16,515 bases of DNA from JACRDV01 sp024860865 [NCBI: Methanobacteriota archaeon] (GTDB lineage Archaea > JACRDV01). Location of the stretch: NCBI GenBank assembly GCA_024860865.1, contig JACRDV010000093.1, positions 1 to 16,515 on the forward strand, in the 5' to 3' direction. The position numbers were made by a program, and so were the translations under genes. Position 1 is the first letter of the stretch. Every line of letters starts with the position of its first letter. Below are positions 1 through 8,954 of this stretch, one piece after another. The notes beneath the pieces were generated by a model. The model saw only the letters and a program-made list of their open reading frames with translations, was not told the origin of the DNA and did no database searches.

Positions 1-608
1 ACCGTTTTAATTCCTTTTTCCACATCGATGGCGTTTTGAATTGCTTTTGCAACTTCATGATAGAAATTTGCCTTAACTTCTGCTCTAACCTTCCATTCAG
101 CTTGTTTCCCAGGAATTGACCTCTCAATTTTTCCAGCTTGGTCAATACCATATTGTCGAATTATTGCTAGATCTGCCTCTCCTTCATCCATAGTAACGAC
201 TAAAACATATGGCACTCGAACAGCTCTTTCTGCTTCTTTTAACCTTTGAAGTTGGTCCGGCTTCCAACCTTGTTCTTTCTCAATAGTTAAAACAGTTCTA
301 GGTTCAACTTCAATTGTGTGGTGAGCTCCGATTGATTCATCGCCAGCTTCAATTGTTCCAAGGATTCTAAGCCTGTTTGTGTATTTGTGAAACTCAAGAT
401 TTTTTACTCTAATTCCAAGATAAACTGGTCTTTTTTCAAAAGCTTCTGGCCTTAGCTTATCAGGTCGTTCAATTTCGACTCTGCGAAATGTCTTTGCAAA
501 AACAATATCTCCAAGCTCTATGACGTGGGATAAGTGCCATAGGTCATCCAAAGTTTGAGCTCTAACCTTTACTTTGTTATGATCTAAATCCTTTTCAATG
601 ACTCGCAT
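1..608 (-). CDS. pelA: Pelota (archaeal Dom34), N-terminal part, runs off the left edge
   Basis: mRNA surveillance factor. It enters the empty A site of a stalled ribosome and, with ABCE1, splits the subunits. Translating the minus strand from the ATG at 606-608 gives 202 codons before the window edge. The N-terminal Sm-like domain is recognisable: a start resembling MRVIEKDL, then the family signature TLDDLWHLSHVIELGD at about residues 19-34, then a basic stretch with KTFRRVEIE. A second domain begins near residue 140 with VPYVLVVTMDEGEADLAI, typical of the eRF1/Pelota central domain. No GGQ motif is visible, as expected for Pelota rather than release factor aRF1. NEMF lies 73 bp upstream on the same strand. 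No clear ribosome binding site precedes the ATG; an AT-rich TATA-like stretch near 624-636 would fit a leaderless transcript. The C-terminal domain is outside the window. Confidence 0.93.
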   Translation of the reverse strand, partial: MRVIEKDLDHNKVKVRAQTLDDLWHLSHVIELGDIVFAKTFRRVEIERPDKLRPEAFEKRPVYLGIRVKNLEFHKYTNRLRILGTIEAGDESIGAHHTIEVEPRTVLTIEKEQGWKPDQLQRLKEAERAVRVPYVLVVTMDEGEADLAIIRQYGIDQAGKIERSIPGKQAEWKVRAEVKANFYHEVAKAIQNAIDVEKGIKT

Positions 609-681
609 TTTTCTCAAACTCGCAAAATCTAATTTATTGTATTTGTCTTAATTCTAAAACAAAGTCCTATTATTAGGTTAT

Positions 682-2685
682 TTATTTTGAAATTTCACTG
701 GAACCTGGAGGAAGTGCGCGCAATAAATCATCGGCCGTTATAAACTGGTGAATTAAAGCCTTGTCAGCATCAGATGCTATTTGTAAAAAAGTGCCCAGCA
801 ACTGCTTGGCAAGTTGCGCGCGATCTATCCGACCTGGTTTTAAGGTTACCCAATATTTTGCTAGTTTCTGTATGGGTTCTACAGGACCAGCTATTATTTT
901 AGCCTCATTATCAATTTTGATTCCAATGGCTAAGCTGAGTTCGATATTGCGAATATAGTTTCTAGTCCCACGTATCATAAAAGCCCCACGAGGCAGATAT
1001 TCTCCAGGTGGAGGAGTTTTTGAAACTTGTTCAGGCTTAACCCAATAAACATCGGCGGAGAAAATTCTATGTTTCCATGTACTAGCGTAGGCTGCTGCAA
1101 ATTCAGCCGCTTCCTTGATGGTTTGTTCTTGTACTGGTTTTCCTTCTGTTTTTATTACAACAACCGGAGCTCCATGAGCATCAGAATGTAAGAAAAGATC
1201 CTCTGGTTGCATATATTTTTTAACTACCTCTTCATTAGAAGGTGCTCCTCGGCCACCAATAACTAAAAAACCATCAGATGAAATGAACCATCTTAATCTT
1301 TCAAACCATTGTACTTTTCTTTTTACTCGCTTTGTTGGGATTGCTTTCTCTATTTCAATTGCTGTTAATCCCATTTCTCTTAGTTTAGAAATTTCTCGCA
1401 AAGTAGCCTCGACTGCCTTTTGTGCTCCTAGGACTTTCTCTCTCTGCTTTTTGGCTTTTTTATAGAACTCCTGAGCATTCTCAGATAGCTTTTTTCTAAA
1501 ATCGATGTCGACTTCAACTACTTTAGCACGATCTAGGCTCTGCAGCTTAAGTAAAAGTAACCCTTGTTTGGGTTTAACTTCTTTTATTATATTTGCCTGG
1601 GGTAATGTTTTAATTTGCTTTAAGATTTCATCCCAAGACAATTTTTTCTTCGCTTCTCCAAGCCATGCTAGCAAATTTTCTATCTGAACTTTATTGTTAT
1701 AAATTAAATCTCCCATTTCTTGGAATTCAAATTCCCTCGTTTTAAATTGCTCCAAGCTTTTTTGTTGTTTTGCTAAACGTCTTTCAATATCAGCAATTTT
1801 TTCAGCAAGTTTTTGTTCTTTTAGTTTCTCAAGCCTTAGCACCTCAGTTGAGCTGAAAAATTCATCAAGGGCTTGATTGAAGTTATCGAATTGTCTTTTA
1901 GTAAAGCCAGTATATCTTGTAAGTTCAAATGGAACCACATCAAGAAATTTTTCATTTTCTAATACAATAGTTGGCATAAACTGCTTCGATTTTAAAGGCT
2001 CAAAGGTTTTTTGGATAGCTTGATAAACTATTCGTATCTCATTTGGAGTTAACTCTTGGGTGAGCTTATTCTTATCAATAGAAGCATTAGCGCATATTTC
2101 TTCAGCATAAAGACCTCCAATATTGAATTGCGTAGCTAAACAGCGAACTAAATCAGTTTTGCTAGCTTTAAAAAGCGAGGACAATCCTTCGAGTGTAATT
2201 TCAAGTGGATTAAGTTTACTTGGTGGATAACGATATTTTTCACCAGGATGAATTGTCCTATCCTTAAAGCGTTGGATTTTAAGTGATTGGATAATAGAAT
2301 AATCTGAAGTTGTTAAAACAATGTTGCCTCGGCTAAACAGTTCATTAATTAAAATATATTCTGCCTCACGTGAAAATTTAAGCTCTACAATTCGATCAAA
2401 ATCGAATTGGGTAATATCGATTAATCTAGCATTATCTAGATATTTTCTAAGTCCCATTGAAAAGTTGGTTGGAGTTATAGGAGCTGGTCTTGGATATTGA
2501 GTTATGTGGAGACGTTTACTCGCCTCTATAACCAAGTCTATAGTGCCTAACCCAACTTGATAAAGGCGGATTAAAATTTCATTCTCAGCAGTTTGATATA
2601 CTTTCTCAACTCTCGCGCCGATAAGTTTATCTTTTAATTCCTTTACAATAACCGAAACATCAACGCTGCTTACTTCAGTCTTCAT
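682..2685 (-). CDS. rqcH: RqcH/NEMF/Rqc2 family ribosome quality-control protein (NFACT)
   Basis: Binds large ribosomal subunits blocked by peptidyl-tRNA and, in characterised homologues, recruits tRNA to add a C-terminal tail to the stalled chain. 667 residues in the full NFACT order: NFACT-N (about 1-180), helix-hairpin-helix-like segment (about 180-240), coiled coils (about 282-325 and 400-440) and NFACT-R (about 460-580, with WFISSDGFLVIGGRGAPSNE and EDLFLHSDAHGAP). The residues needed for tail synthesis in yeast Rqc2 and Bacillus RqcH are present: Asp9 in SSVDVS and the Asp97-Arg98 pair in FDFDRIVELKF. This suggests an active tailing enzyme; the activity is inferred. Start: ATG at 2683-2685, with GGTG (minus strand, near 2693-2696) about 7 nt upstream, which fits an archaeal ribosome binding site. 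That site lies inside the divergent EMC6-like gene. Confidence 0.95.
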   Translation of the reverse strand: MKTEVSSVDVSVIVKELKDKLIGARVEKVYQTAENEILIRLYQVGLGTIDLVIEASKRLHITQYPRPAPITPTNFSMGLRKYLDNARLIDITQFDFDRIVELKFSREAEYILINELFSRGNIVLTTSDYSIIQSLKIQRFKDRTIHPGEKYRYPPSKLNPLEITLEGLSSLFKASKTDLVRCLATQFNIGGLYAEEICANASIDKNKLTQELTPNEIRIVYQAIQKTFEPLKSKQFMPTIVLENEKFLDVVPFELTRYTGFTKRQFDNFNQALDEFFSSTEVLRLEKLKEQKLAEKIADIERRLAKQQKSLEQFKTREFEFQEMGDLIYNNKVQIENLLAWLGEAKKKLSWDEILKQIKTLPQANIIKEVKPKQGLLLLKLQSLDRAKVVEVDIDFRKKLSENAQEFYKKAKKQREKVLGAQKAVEATLREISKLREMGLTAIEIEKAIPTKRVKRKVQWFERLRWFISSDGFLVIGGRGAPSNEEVVKKYMQPEDLFLHSDAHGAPVVVIKTEGKPVQEQTIKEAAEFAAAYASTWKHRIFSADVYWVKPEQVSKTPPPGEYLPRGAFMIRGTRNYIRNIELSLAIGIKIDNEAKIIAGPVEPIQKLAKYWVTLKPGRIDRAQLAKQLLGTFLQIASDADKALIHQFITADDLLRALPPGSSEISK

Positions 2686-2690
2686 TCTTT

Positions 2691-2972
2691 ATGCACCGGG
2701 GAATTAATGTGGATGCAGAAACTAAAACAATAGCATTGCATTCAATCAGTGGGTTTATAGCAGGTATTCTTTGCGTTATAGTTAAAACAAATTGGGTTGG
2801 AGCATTGCTTGCGTTTGGAATATTAGCTCTTTCGATATTTATTACTACTCGTGTACTGAAAATATCCACTGAAACGCTTGGTGGCAGCACTATGAGTTGG
2901 GTAGGTAATGCAATATGGCCCTTTTTGTCTATTTGGTTGGTAACGTGGATTTTATTGTATAACTTAATGTAA
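2691..2972 (+). CDS. EMC6-like small three-helix membrane protein
   Basis: 93 residues with three hydrophobic segments: about 18-33, 36-54 and 72-92. The pattern resembles EMC6, a core subunit of the ER membrane insertase complex that pairs with the Oxa1-type subunit EMC3. The first helix opens with SGFIAGIL, much like the SG-x-x-AGIL opening of eukaryotic EMC6, and the last helix (FLSIWLVTWILLYNLM) resembles its Tyr-rich C-terminus. Archaea carry EMC3-like (DUF106) proteins and short EMC6-like partners, so a role in membrane protein insertion is plausible but inferred. The ATG is 5 bp from the NEMF start on the other strand. An alternative GTG start at 2709, with GGGG about 8 nt upstream, would give 87 residues and leave more room for promoters. 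It could also be an unrelated small membrane protein. Confidence 0.72.
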   Translation: MHRGINVDAETKTIALHSISGFIAGILCVIVKTNWVGALLAFGILALSIFITTRVLKISTETLGGSTMSWVGNAIWPFLSIWLVTWILLYNLM

Positions 2973-3023
2973 GGCCATTGAGAAATGGTAGATTAAAAAC
3001 TTTAGACCAGTAGAACAAAATCC

Positions 3024-3048
3024 ACTTTTAAAAAGATATTTTAAAAGT
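3024..3048. promoter_or_regulatory. Perfect 10-bp inverted repeat upstream of ABCE1, with TATA-like core
   Basis: Arms ACTTTTAAAA (3024-3033) and TTTTAAAAGT (3039-3048) are exact reverse complements separated by AGATA. The right arm lies about 47-56 nt before the ABCE1 ATG. As a TATA box it would place transcription start near 3068-3072, leaving a leader of about 25 nt that contains the GGGGGT ribosome binding site at 3084-3089. It could equally be a hairpin terminator for the EMC6-like gene or an operator. Confidence 0.45.
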
Positions 3049-3094
3049 TGACTTTCTAAAGAATATTGTAATTACATCATTATGGGGGTAGTTT

Positions 3095-4894
3095 ATGCCG
3101 CGCATAGCTGTTATTGACCGCAATCGATGTCAGCCAAAAAAATGCGGCACTGAGTGCATTAAATACTGCCCCAGAGTAAGAGCAGGTGATGAGACAGTAA
3201 AGTTTGCTGAAGATGGTAAACCTATCATCATCGAAGAACTTTGTCCTGGCTGTGGGATTTGCACTCATAAATGCCCATTTGAAGCAATAATGATCATAAA
3301 TTTGCCAGAAGAGTTAGCTGAAGATTGCATCCATCAATATGGACCTAATGGTTTTCGGCTATATAGGTTGCCAATTCCAAGGTTTAGCAGTGTTACAGGT
3401 ATTATCGGACCTAATGGAGTTGGAAAAACAACAGCTATCCGAGTTCTAGCCGGGGAGGTTAAGCCTAACCTTGGAAGGTTGAAGGAGAAACTAAAATGGG
3501 ATGATATTATTCAAATTTTTTCTGGTACAGAATTACAAAATTATTTTACTAAGTTGGTCAACAAGCGCATTAAAGTGGTCCATAAACCACAAGAAGTAGA
3601 TAAACTTCCCAGGGCTGTGCGTGGAGTAACTCACAAATTGCTTGAAAGGGTCGATGAAAGAGGAATTGTAAAAGATTTAATTGATAAACTTCAGCTAAAA
3701 GAAGTGCTTGATAGAAAGCTTTCTCAGCTCAGCGGAGGAGAACTGCAGCGAGTTGCAATTGCAGCAGCTATTGCAAAGGAAAGCGATGTAATAATTTTTG
3801 ATGAACCTTCAAGCTACTTAGATATATACCAGCGTTTAAATACAGCTAAGGTAATTAGAGAGCAAGCATTATCTGGCAAAGCAGTAATTGTAATTGAGCA
3901 TGATTTAGCAGTTTTAGATTATCTTTCAGATTATGTTCATGTTATGTATGGTCAACCTACCGGATATGGTGTAGTTAGCAGCCCAAAGAGCGTGAGAGTT
4001 GGAATTAATGTATATTTGCAAGGCTATCTTAAAGAAGAAAATATCAGATTTAGAAAAGAGCCAGTTAAATTTGAGGTTAGACCCCCAACCGAGCGTTGGG
4101 AAGGCGAGACGCTAGTTCGTTTTAAAAATATTGTAAAACGGTATGAAGGATTTGAAGTTAAAGTCGAGCAAGGGGAAGTTTGTAAGGGCGAAGTTATTGG
4201 CGTTCTTGGCCCAAATGCAACTGGAAAAACTACTTTTGCAAGAATTCTTGCAGGCGAAATCAAACCAAATAAAGGAACTGTTGACAAAACTGTTACTATA
4301 GCTTACAAACCGCAGTATATTACAACCAAGATCGATGAACCCGTGGCTGAATATCTCAGGAAAGCGAATCCAGATAAATTTGGCACAAGTATATACAATA
4401 CAGAAATTTTAAGACCTCTTGACATTAAACCACTTTACGATAGATTGTTATCCGAACTTAGCGGAGGAGAACTCCAACGGGTTGTAATTGCAGCGACTTT
4501 GAGCAAAGACACCCAATTTTATTTACTTGATGAACCATCTGCACATCTTGATGTTGAACAAAGGATGGCTGTTGCGAAAGTCATTAGAAGAATTGCCGAA
4601 AAACGCGAAGCTGGCGCTATGGTTATTGACCATGATATTTTGTTTTTGGACTATATAAGTGATAGGCTGATGGTATTTTTAGGTAAGCCGGGTATAACCG
4701 GAGATGCATTTGGGCCATTTGATCTAAGGACCGGTATGAATACGTTTCTAAAAGAGGTTGGAGTAACATTTAGGAGAGATGAAACTACAGGGCGCCCTCG
4801 CGTAAACAAAGCCGATAGCTACTTAGATAGAGAGCAAAAAAGGTTGGGAGAATATTATTATACGGTTATAACCCCTGAGAAGAGCGAGGCATAG
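3095..4894 (+). CDS. abcE1: ABCE1 (Rli1) ribosome recycling ATPase
   Basis: Iron-sulfur ABC ATPase that splits ribosomes after termination or after Pelota-mediated rescue. 599 residues, normal for the family. The N-terminal ferredoxin-like domain carries eight cysteines in two sets: Cys12, 17, 21, 25 and Cys50, 53, 56, 60, enough for two [4Fe-4S] clusters. The first nucleotide-binding domain has Walker A GPNGVGKTT (105-113), signature LSGGELQR (212-219) and Walker B IIFDEPS (about 233-239). The second has GPNATGKTT (372-380), LSGGELQR (455-462) and LLDEPS (about 477-482). The helix-loop-helix insertion typical of ABCE1 falls between Walker A and signature of domain 1. All catalytic motifs look intact. 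A GGGGGT stretch 5-6 nt before the ATG supports the start. The stop is 4 nt from a small downstream gene, so the two are probably cotranscribed. Confidence 0.98.
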   Translation: MPRIAVIDRNRCQPKKCGTECIKYCPRVRAGDETVKFAEDGKPIIIEELCPGCGICTHKCPFEAIMIINLPEELAEDCIHQYGPNGFRLYRLPIPRFSSVTGIIGPNGVGKTTAIRVLAGEVKPNLGRLKEKLKWDDIIQIFSGTELQNYFTKLVNKRIKVVHKPQEVDKLPRAVRGVTHKLLERVDERGIVKDLIDKLQLKEVLDRKLSQLSGGELQRVAIAAAIAKESDVIIFDEPSSYLDIYQRLNTAKVIREQALSGKAVIVIEHDLAVLDYLSDYVHVMYGQPTGYGVVSSPKSVRVGINVYLQGYLKEENIRFRKEPVKFEVRPPTERWEGETLVRFKNIVKRYEGFEVKVEQGEVCKGEVIGVLGPNATGKTTFARILAGEIKPNKGTVDKTVTIAYKPQYITTKIDEPVAEYLRKANPDKFGTSIYNTEILRPLDIKPLYDRLLSELSGGELQRVVIAATLSKDTQFYLLDEPSAHLDVEQRMAVAKVIRRIAEKREAGAMVIDHDILFLDYISDRLMVFLGKPGITGDAFGPFDLRTGMNTFLKEVGVTFRRDETTGRPRVNKADSYLDREQKRLGEYYYTVITPEKSEA

Positions 4895-4898
4895 ATAC

Positions 4899-5015
4899 AT
4901 GGGCAAACTAAAAAAGCGCAAGCTTGAGAAAAAGGGCTCTGAAAAGCAAAAGGGCAGAAATGAGAAACTTTTAGAGCAAGAAATGAAAGAGCTTAAAGAA
5001 AAACTTTCAAGTTAA
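4899..5015 (+). CDS. 38-residue highly basic protein downstream of ABCE1
   Basis: Small open frame beginning 4 nt after the ABCE1 stop. It reads MGKLKKRKLEKKGSEK and continues with a predicted charged helix ending EMKELKEKLSS. About a third of the residues are Lys or Arg, and the charged spacing suggests an RNA- or ribosome-binding helix. GAGG at 4886-4889, about 9 nt before the ATG, could serve as ribosome binding site. It ends 23 nt before the stop codon of the convergent KaiC-like gene. I do not recognise a family. The tight spacing suggests translation from the ABCE1 transcript and a link to ribosome recycling, which is inference. It could be a chance frame in Lys-rich sequence. Confidence 0.6.
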   Translation: MGKLKKRKLEKKGSEKQKGRNEKLLEQEMKELKEKLSS

Positions 5016-5038: not shown

Positions 5039-6028
5039 TTATTTTTTTAAAGGAGTGGCGTGCCTCAATATAATGCCCTGTTTCTTATTTATAACAAATT
5101 GAACAATTCCAGTGGTATGGTCTGTTCTCAGCATTTTGCAAATTCTTAAATATCGATTTAGTTTTTTGCGTTCCTCAACGAGTAAGAGCTCAATTATTCC
5201 ATCCTCAAAGAAAGCAAGATGGGGCATTATATCATCATAAACCCCCTTATGAAAAACATGCAGTCCTAATATATTGCTGGCGCTAAATCTAGCTTTTCGC
5301 GTTTTAATAAAATCAACTGCTGGCTTAGTTTCCATTTGAGCAAGCATTTCATTTATCGAATCTATTACATAAACCCCTTTTGTTGCTTTCCCTCCTCCAA
5401 CTTCACCCCAAACATGTTCAAAGGCTTTTGCCCATTGGAGATGGTCACGAGGATTTTCAATAAAATATTCGACAGTTGATTTAGGAGGTGCTCCAGTTCT
5501 CCACGAAAAAGCATCGATAAATCGAAATTGATTTTCAGCTTCAAAACTTGAAACGTTCCAACCAAAACGCTCCATGTTTTTTCTAATTTGTAATGGGGGT
5601 TCATCAAGTGCAATATAAATGCAAGGATCGCCTTGTTTTAACCGCGCATAAATAATTTGTTGGCAAAATATAGATTTCCCAACCCCAAGATCACCAACTA
5701 CCAATATGCTTGCTCCTTTAGGAATTCCTCCTTCAATTAAATCGTCAAGTCTTGAGACTCCTGTTTTTACTCTTTCAATTTTTGCTTCAATTGCTTGAAT
5801 TAACTCTTGTTTAGTAGGTAAACCTGTAAATCTAATAGTTCCATCAATAATAATAGTTGGAACTTTTTTTATATCGTAGCGCAATGCTTCCTTAGGATCC
5901 TTCAAAAGGTCATAAACTTTAACCTCTACCTGATCTTCAAAAGTTTTAGCGATATCGTTCACTAGACTTAATGCTTCTGGGGAAGCAACATCTATTTCTG
6001 ATTTAAAAACTTCCAGTAAAACAGCCAT
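5039..6028 (-). CDS. KaiC/RadA-like ATPase fused to an N-terminal thioredoxin-fold domain lacking CXXC
   Basis: 329 residues, two domains. Residues 1-85 form a glutaredoxin/thioredoxin-like fold: beta strand VLLEVFKS, helix, second strand VEVKVYDLL, and the cis-proline signature KKVPTIIIDG (54-63). The segment where archaeal glutaredoxins have CPxC reads DVAS (13-16), so both redox cysteines are gone. Residues 86-329 are a single KaiC-like RecA domain: entry motif KTGVSRLDDLIEGGIPKG, Walker A GDLGVGKS (112-119), acidic LDEPP following the next strand (141-145), and Walker B VYVIDS (219-224). The first domain probably serves as a protein-binding or regulatory module for the ATPase; substrate and partner are unknown. 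Single KaiC-domain proteins in archaea are linked to motility, signalling or DNA functions, and nothing nearby decides between these. The aminotransferase lies 70 bp upstream on the same strand. Confidence 0.88.
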   Translation of the reverse strand: MAVLLEVFKSEIDVASPEALSLVNDIAKTFEDQVEVKVYDLLKDPKEALRYDIKKVPTIIIDGTIRFTGLPTKQELIQAIEAKIERVKTGVSRLDDLIEGGIPKGASILVVGDLGVGKSIFCQQIIYARLKQGDPCIYIALDEPPLQIRKNMERFGWNVSSFEAENQFRFIDAFSWRTGAPPKSTVEYFIENPRDHLQWAKAFEHVWGEVGGGKATKGVYVIDSINEMLAQMETKPAVDFIKTRKARFSASNILGLHVFHKGVYDDIMPHLAFFEDGIIELLLVEERKKLNRYLRICKMLRTDHTTGIVQFVINKKQGIILRHATPLKK

Positions 6029-7757: not shown

Positions 7758-8954
7758 TTAGAAGTCGGTCATAATTCTAAACTGGTCGACCTCTTCTACA
7801 CCCATCCTCTGGAGGAATGCCCTTGCAGCACCGGTCACGTCCTTCGCAGCCGTAATAGCTCTTCCAACCACAAGGATATCGGCACCCGATTTCAGGGCTT
7901 CCTCCACCCTATCGAGCCTGATCCCCCCGGCCACTGCCACCAATATCTTGTTATTGCATATTTTCTTAATTTCGCCGATATTTCCCCACTGGGCCTTCTC
8001 GGTGTGCTCTACATCTATCGCCCTGTGGAGTTCCAAGATGTCCGGCTTCACCTTCAGTTTTTTGAGCACCTCCGCCGGATCGGGCATGTTGAGAGTATCC
8101 ATCAGCGACAGTGCCCCGACCTTCTGGCACTCCTCTATGAACTTCTCCATGGTCTTCAACGGCGCAAGGCCAGAAAACACTATTACGTCAGCGGTGGCAT
8201 CTCCAGCCATTCTAGCCTCGAGGTTGCCCGTATCAAGTGTCTTCAAATCTGCGACCACAACGGTCTCCGGCCTCATCTGGTGGATCTTCTGCACCACTTC
8301 GACGCCGTATCTCTTTATCAGCGGCGTCCCGGCTTCGATTATTATTGCATCCGTTCTTGGAAGTGCCCTGATGACGCCTTCAACTCTTCGCCAGTCTGGA
8401 ATGTCGAAGGCGATCTCAAGATACGGTGGCTTCTTCAGATTATTTATCCTAAATCCTATCATAGCATGTATTGATTTATCCTTTTCCTCTAAAATCTTAT
8501 CGATGTTCGGAAACCCCTCCATAGCGCGCCTTAATGCAAGCTTCGTGGCCCCATAGTTGTACCTATATAGTCTCTGGTAGTCCTTTCCGCGGGGATGAAT
8601 GAACACAGAGACTATGATCAATATATCCTCCACTTTTTCCTTAGGTATGATTCCCTCCTCCACCGCGTCGACAACCGCCTTAGCTATAGCGCTTTGGGCA
8701 GGCCCAAAAATCTTTTCGGCATCTTCTAGGTTCCTTATGGTTACCTTAGGCACAATGAGCGTCGCGGGCTTAACAGGGAGATTGGGCCTCACCACAGCTA
8801 AAATGGGCGTATGCCCCTGTGTGGGTTGGGCTAAGGAATTGACAAAGGCCTGACTGATCGGCCCCTTTTTGCGCCCCACTACTAGATCGATATGCGCGAT
8901 CTCAGGTTCTTCACCAACGAGGGCTTCACCCACTAAAAGTTCGTCGTCAATCAT
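7758..8954 (-). CDS. fae-hps: Bifunctional formaldehyde-activating enzyme / 3-hexulose-6-phosphate synthase (Fae-Hps)
   Basis: 398 residues joining two enzymes. Residues 1-160 are Fae, which condenses formaldehyde with tetrahydromethanopterin; the catalytic His is His21 in EIAHIDLVVG, and GPISQAFVNSLAQPTQGHTP is family-typical. Residues 165-398 are Hps of the OMP decarboxylase superfamily: IAFDIPDWRR (181-190), EAGTPLIKRYG (207-217), the metal and substrate motif ADLKTLDTG (235-243, Asp-x-Lys-x-x-Asp), and phosphate-binding VAGGI (341-345) and VVGRAI (362-367). In archaea lacking the oxidative pentose phosphate pathway, Hps run in reverse supplies ribulose 5-phosphate, and Fae captures the released formaldehyde. 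The ATG overlaps the end of the 99-residue gene by 8 nt, so the two are translationally coupled. The gene is visibly richer in G and C than its neighbours (33 of 60 at 8221-8280 against 23 of 60 in pgk at 10441-10500), suggesting transfer or separate selection. Confidence 0.95.
   Translation of the reverse strand: MIDDELLVGEALVGEEPEIAHIDLVVGRKKGPISQAFVNSLAQPTQGHTPILAVVRPNLPVKPATLIVPKVTIRNLEDAEKIFGPAQSAIAKAVVDAVEEGIIPKEKVEDILIIVSVFIHPRGKDYQRLYRYNYGATKLALRRAMEGFPNIDKILEEKDKSIHAMIGFRINNLKKPPYLEIAFDIPDWRRVEGVIRALPRTDAIIIEAGTPLIKRYGVEVVQKIHQMRPETVVVADLKTLDTGNLEARMAGDATADVIVFSGLAPLKTMEKFIEECQKVGALSLMDTLNMPDPAEVLKKLKVKPDILELHRAIDVEHTEKAQWGNIGEIKKICNNKILVAVAGGIRLDRVEEALKSGADILVVGRAITAAKDVTGAARAFLQRMGVEEVDQFRIMTDF

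Follow-up and report, generated by a model that had tools for sequence, protein, structure and literature searches.

An EMC6-like gene recurs beside the ribosome-rescue genes RqcH and ABCE1 in archaea

A stretch of 16,515 nucleotides (contig JACRDV010000093.1, C44 in the analysis), hereafter the window, begins at base 1 of its contig and carries at positions 1 to 5015 a cluster of ribosome-rescue genes, in which a gene for an EMC6-like membrane protein stands between those of RqcH, the archaeal homologue of NEMF/Rqc2, and of ABCE1 (Rli1), the ribosome-splitting ATPase. When a ribosome stalls, pelota and ABCE1 separate its subunits, and RqcH then acts on the obstructed large subunit. The EMC6 gene recurs beside RqcH or ABCE1 in widely separated archaea with a fixed geometry, and its link to the rescue genes as a genomic association is strongly supported. 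This conserved neighbourhood would join ribosome rescue to a subunit of an EMC6-type insertase; on whether the two are coupled at the membrane, we find the case evenly balanced.

Recurrence of EMC6 beside RqcH and ABCE1

In the window, pelota and RqcH (682 to 2685) lie on the minus strand and run leftward, and EMC6 (2691 to 2972), ABCE1 (3095 to 4894) and a gene for a basic protein of 38 residues lie on the plus strand and run rightward. This layout was compared across 149 genomes taken domain-wide from the archaea, the relatives being of phyla other than that of the window and their families carrying anonymous labels (f1 and so on). The E-value limits were 1e-100 for ABCE1, 1e-40 for RqcH and 1e-30 for pelota; they are strict, so absences may be misses, and all results that involve RqcH hold among the matches listed. 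The end of RqcH in one genome (G147) was extended from the open frame. With a profile of 37 sequences (A1), EMC6 was detected in 76 of the 149 genomes, belonging to 36 families; the Pfam model alone gave 41 genomes.

In 34 of the 76 genomes, drawn from 14 of the 36 families, the distance from EMC6 to RqcH or ABCE1 is at most 500 bp, and 36 genomes have either gene within 5 kb of it. Random placement would give about 0.03 genomes with EMC6 within 500 bp of either gene, an expectation that ignores kinship between genomes. RqcH is the close neighbour in 24 of the 76 genomes (families f1, f2, f3, f4, f11, f17, f30, f34, f38, f57 and f72), and the two genes are head-to-head in all 24. ABCE1 is the close neighbour in 11 of the 76 (families f1, f8, f10 and f27), with EMC6 directly upstream on the same strand in every case. 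Since some of the A1 sequences had come from beside ABCE1, a recount was made with the Pfam matches only; EMC6 was then within 500 bp in 20 of 41 genomes from 8 families, 14 by RqcH and 7 by ABCE1. In lineages missed by the profile, a small membrane protein can also stand head-to-head with RqcH, as in f61 (E 2e-6) and likewise, at weak scores, in f24 and f53 (E 0.4 to 0.6).

The surroundings of RqcH were also compared on their own, with one region for each of 30 families and 267 neighbour genes in total. EMC6 was the most recurrent neighbour, present in 16 of the 30 families at a lenient cut (E 0.5) and in 14 after two were dropped, against 5 for the runner-up. At least 11 of these families had been picked for having the EMC6 link, so the comparison ranks the neighbours and gives no rate. 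The two profile matches in f5 and f49 were rejected, since the matched gene follows RqcH on its strand and the cut used was a lenient one. The second most recurrent neighbour is a gene that looks CBS-domain-like by its sequence, seen in f10, f11, f17, f38 and f42 (L179, L182, L188, L190 and L215).

Among 80 named ABCE1 loci from the GTDB collection, EMC6 stands directly upstream of ABCE1 in 47 and not in 30, and in the other three the upstream DNA is too short to tell. The 47 consist of six Methanosarcinaceae records and 41 others, titled Halobacteria except for L071, which is titled uncultured archaeon; the 30 include L032 to L035, Methanosphaera and other Methanobacteriaceae, Poseidoniales, Thalassarchaeaceae, DPANN and others. 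RqcH was sought in 16 of the named genomes and found in 12, as a full-length gene in 11. EMC6 is head-to-head with it in Hydrothermarchaeum profundi, across a gap of about 150 bp, and in a metagenome-assembled genome (MAG) titled Hodarchaeaceae (L276), across about 500 bp.

RqcH and ABCE1 are both no more than 5 kb from EMC6 in the window and in four f10 genomes, where a gene that looks CBS-like, on the strand of RqcH, occupies the gap between RqcH and EMC6; both are within 500 bp only in the window among the 76. These five clusters are what would be expected from an ancestral RqcH-EMC6-ABCE1 order left unbroken in some lineages by neutral retention. The EMC6-ABCE1 pairs of f8, f27 and the Halobacteria may even go back to one inherited event, as they group in the ABCE1 tree with a support of 0.97. 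Neutral retention has nevertheless only a small chance of being the explanation, given that the other neighbours of RqcH are kept far less, the second most recurrent one in 5 of 30 families, and that the orientation of EMC6 is constant in every close pair with either gene.

Identity of the genes in the cluster

The EMC6-like gene matches the Pfam family EMC6_arch (PF19094) at 28.6 bits, a narrow pass over the gathering cut-off of 26.7, and is the only match in its genome; Haloferax volcanii, used as a control genome, also has a match. The start codons of RqcH and EMC6 are 5 bases apart as called and 23 apart if EMC6 starts at the GTG at 2709, which is preceded by GGGGA. The latter is probably the true start: the protein would then begin with MDAETKT, matching the MD.E.K-like starts of its relatives, from which the choice is drawn, and a short region at 2686 to 2708 would separate the two genes.

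An AlphaFold model, for which 35 sequences from the window and the named loci were used, predicts three helices (residues 7 to 31, 35 to 55 and 67 to 92) with a mean predicted local distance difference test score of 70.6 and a predicted template modelling score of 0.49. A Foldseek search with this model gave no match at E ≤0.001. When VIA-align was used, which merely re-aligns the rows from Foldseek, the top rows were yeast EMC6 (Z 6.8, root-mean-square deviation 4.2, 90 aligned) and human EMC6 (Z 6.7), values that are middling for helical bundles. Next came one chain each of the multipass translocon (6.0) and the WRB/CAML complex (5.5), and unrelated membrane proteins scored 5.0 or less.

The EMC6-like protein had been called uncharacterised in the first-pass annotation, which is partly right: archaeal EMC6 is an established Pfam family for which, in the available text of Lewis and Hegde, a partnership with YidC has been proposed (PMC8675477). 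The same text reports exactly one EMC6-like protein per proteome in nine archaea and heterodimers of the archaeal EMC6-like protein and YidC predicted by modelling, and its only remark on the locus of the gene places it at a distance from the SecY/YidC cluster (PMC8675477). The window agrees with that pair in the membership of its protein in EMC6_arch, in the three predicted helices and in the presence in the genome of DUF106 (PF01956), the EMC3/YidC partner family. It differs in the link to the rescue genes, which is the new point; ABCE1, NEMF and an operon are without mention in the available part of the paper (PMC8675477).

DUF106 is present once in the genome of the window, beside a gene that we take to be SecY-like. 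The predicted three-helix arrangement may resemble that of the eukaryotic insertases EMC3-EMC6, TMCO1-C20orf24 and GET1-GET2, at modest scores, and the DUF106/EMC3 partner family is present as well. In eukaryotes, which were not searched as such, EMC6 is not known to us to be linked directly with NEMF or ABCE1.

The five features named in the first-pass annotation, namely pelota, RqcH, EMC6, ABCE1 and the small basic protein, are all borne out by open reading frames (ORFs), Pfam and NCBIfam, with the correction that pelota is partial in the window, because the window begins at contig base 1. The N-terminal part of this gene (aPelota/Dom34; 1 to 617, minus strand, ORF at 3 to 617) matches eRF1_1 (PF03463) at 105.3 bits and positions 1 to 197 of the 351 of TIGR00111; the score of the cut part is 162.1 bits, against a cut-off of 177.65 meant for the whole protein. 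Profile positions 200 to 351 are found where another contig of this genome, C127, ends (C127:5073-5543).

RqcH, of 667 residues, matches NF041120 over profile positions 1 to 644 of 645, and hence over its full length, at 725.8 bits against a cut-off of 400. It agrees with the RqcH/Rqc2/NEMF proteins of ribosome-associated quality control (RQC) both in family and in the presence of the D97-R98 pair; among 30 aligned RqcH sequences, the first column holds D in 23 and E in 7, and the second holds R in all 30. Bacterial RqcH works with RqcP. In the available text on RqcH of Bacillus subtilis, the D-R pair is required for the recognition of tRNA-Ala (PMC8373112).

The identity of ABCE1 is unambiguous: NF009945 is matched at 916.3 bits against a cut-off of 469, and the Pfam domains comprise Fer4_RLI, Fer4 and two ABC_tran stretches, i.e., an iron-sulfur domain and two ABC domains. 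In a tree of 35 ABCE1 sequences, the window is sister, with a support of 0.99, to three MAGs: L033, from an uncultured archaeon; a record titled Hadesarchaea, placed in Hadarchaeota by the NCBI taxonomy; and one titled Candidatus Hodarchaeaceae. The last of these (L032, L276) bears an Asgard name in the NCBI taxonomy, yet its ABCE1 groups with that of Hadesarchaea, and the title may be wrong.

The clustering of the rescue genes noticed in the first-pass annotation extends beyond this genome, with RqcH-pelota, ABCE1-pelota and RqcH-ABCE1 pairs recurring in other archaea. By eye from the tables, pelota is within 5 kb of RqcH in at least seven genomes (the window, four of f27, one of f57 and G104) and within 5 kb of ABCE1 in 12 (G008, G030, G041, G049, G062, G070, G083, G091, G093, G114, G133 and G142). 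Pelota also directly follows RqcH in the two Methanosarcinaceae genomes with a full-length RqcH. Since pelota is paired with RqcH in some genomes and with ABCE1 in others, the clustering recurs in varying pairs. In eight genomes (G041, G049, G008, G062, G133, G142, G114 and G093), ABCE1 and pelota are adjacent, no more than 350 bp apart, and arranged either in tandem or head-to-head.

ABCE1 is, to our knowledge, generally taken to be universal in archaea. Among the matches listed and at the limit of 1e-100, it was not recognized in families f7, f12, f15, f29 and f67 or in G020, several of these genomes being fairly complete; examples are G020 itself (one contig, 99% complete) and all three genomes of each of f7, f15 and f29. 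RqcH and pelota were also not found in f15 among the matches listed, at their limits of 1e-40 and 1e-30. The missing ABCE1 could reflect divergence, strict limits or a limit of the search.

Beyond the cluster, a minus-strand gene at 5039 to 6028, convergent with the ABCE1 operon, encodes a KaiC-type ATPase (PF06745) with a fused thioredoxin-like domain (PF13192), and similar genes occur near RqcH in families f11 and f72. Another minus-strand gene, at 7758 to 8954, presumably encodes a fused formaldehyde-activating enzyme and hexulose-phosphate synthase.

The 38-residue protein

The ORF of 38 residues (4899 to 5015, plus strand) starts four bases past the stop codon of ABCE1. A search with its product found 13 further genomes at E ≤1, several with the match as a whole tiny ORF, the relatives being 32 to 58 residues long. 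Seven positions (M1, R7, E10, K12, G13, K16 and L24) are invariant among nine aligned sequences, that of the window included. The family, named KRxxERKGSEK here, has the motif M-x-[KR]-x-x-[KR]-R-x-x-E-[RK]-K-G-x-x-K and is represented in the window and at L228 to L234, L236 and L238 to L267, and its profile matches 44 of 394 genomes, its own included, at E ≤0.01 in several families. No Pfam family was matched above cut-off; a match to Wbp11 (E 0.089) lies below it and was taken as chance. By its conservation, the ORF is judged to be a real protein of a small archaeal family and no artefact.

The first-pass annotation had suggested that both small proteins take part in rescue with the genes around them, on the understanding that they would be linked to these genes in relatives. 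As a genomic association, this stands in the case of the EMC6-like gene, in the 34 genomes and 14 families given above, and it falls for the 38-residue protein, which is near ABCE1 in none of the 14 other genomes where both could be placed. In six of these (G029, G071, G092, G107, G113 and G132), the two lie hundreds of kilobases apart on the same contig; in eight (G001, G023, G024, G065, G086, G119, G137 and G145), they are on separate contigs of fragmented assemblies, which is weaker evidence. Among the ABCE1 loci compared, no similar ORF stands close behind ABCE1 outside the window. The neighbours of the tiny family elsewhere differ, and they seem to be a Hef-type helicase (f2, f57 and f109) and a helix-turn-helix gene (f27 and f81).

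A role of both small proteins in rescue, the peptide included, could draw on the conservation and basic character of the peptide and on its place four bases behind ABCE1, and the available text of PMC8373112 raises the possibility of a still undiscovered archaeal factor that acts together with Rqc2/NEMF. Such a role is scarcely credible given the 14 genomes in which the peptide is away from ABCE1, the different neighbours and the presence of the family in only 44 of the 394 genomes. A link of the peptide to ABCE1 was therefore rejected and a role in rescue is not supported, its position behind ABCE1 being seen only in the window among the genomes compared; it would be a separate small protein that stands there by happenstance.

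A possible coupling of insertion and rescue at the membrane

The preferred reading is that the neighbourhood reflects a coupling of rescue and insertion, with EMC6 possibly acting in rescue at membrane-bound ribosomes. EMC6 would be co-expressed with RqcH, with ABCE1 or with both, through a divergent control region and an operon that they share. Together with its partner YidC/EMC3 (DUF106), it would form a membrane site for 50S subunits that carry unfinished membrane or secreted chains and that would be left at the membrane once pelota and ABCE1 have split the ribosome. Splitting, the action of RqcH and the insertion or clearance of the chain could thereby be matched.

DUF106 served as a negative control for the neighbourhood. 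It was found in 136 of the 149 genomes, none of which has it within 500 bp of either RqcH or ABCE1, and the nearest case was about 5 kb away start to start (distances from the 54 genomes in which the genes share a contig). By presence, DUF106 does follow EMC6, occurring in 74 of the 76 genomes with EMC6 versus 62 of the 73 without (p 0.008).

Several observations weigh against a coupling of EMC6 with rescue. RqcH, among the matches listed, shows the opposite direction to DUF106, with 67 of the 76 EMC6 genomes versus 72 of the 73 without EMC6 (p 0.018). EMC6 and RqcH are thus not obligate partners, since nine EMC6 genomes are without an RqcH match, one of which (G145) has its EMC6 cut at a contig start. 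EMC6 lies more than 5 kb from both RqcH and ABCE1 in 21 of the 36 families, among which some EMC6 matches are weak and many assemblies are fragmented. Within the 1.5-kb flank of RqcH, EMC6 was not seen in nine of the 11 named genomes with a full-length RqcH; three Halobacteria and two Methanosarcinaceae of these have it beside ABCE1 instead, and two Methanosphaera and two Thalassarchaea have it beside neither gene. Moreover, a shared neighbourhood, taken by itself, need imply neither contact nor a common pathway.

The main rival is co-regulation without contact, in which RqcH, ABCE1 and EMC6 would stand under one control region, their amounts would follow the number of ribosomes and EMC6 would serve only the general YidC insertase. 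We regard it as a substantial possibility that falls short of even. EMC6 tracks DUF106 and not RqcH, and would therefore be above all an insertase partner with no need of RqcH; the fixed geometry would suit a shared promoter, and the available text of PMC8675477 proposes EMC6 as the partner of the insertase. Co-regulation leaves unexplained why EMC6 adjoins the rescue genes and DUF106 does not, and why the neighbour of EMC6 may be either RqcH or ABCE1.

The coupling of EMC6 with rescue can also be drawn further, in a form that we hold to be rather unlikely. There, the EMC6/YidC insertase would be a membrane arm of archaeal RQC that docks the 50S subunit bearing RqcH, the RqcH-EMC6-ABCE1 cluster would be an ancestral module, and NEMF-type quality control would have had EMC6 among its partners from the outset, before the eukaryotic endoplasmic reticulum arose.

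We found no literature tying archaeal EMC6 to RqcH or ABCE1, an absence from the search not being an absence from print, and a literature search on DUF5379 gave no result. A study by Burroughs and Aravind from 2014 reportedly deals with NFACT gene neighbourhoods and may hold a related remark. Makarova et al. 2015 treat YidC, and EMC, Rli1, RNA-binding and fibronectin are absent as terms from the available text (PMC5898192). In the available parts of three further papers, pelota and ABCE1 are covered and EMC6 is not (PMC6514570), none of RNase L, Rli, fibronectin and pelota is mentioned (PMC2643942), and nothing is said on archaeal gene order (PMC8887752).

The neighbourhood with its fixed geometry leads to a testable proposal, that membrane-protein insertion is linked to the rescue of stalled ribosomes in archaea. 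Haloferax volcanii would allow genetics if its gene order is that of the Halobacteria with EMC6 upstream of ABCE1. If the proposal is true, a membrane branch of quality control would predate eukaryotes.

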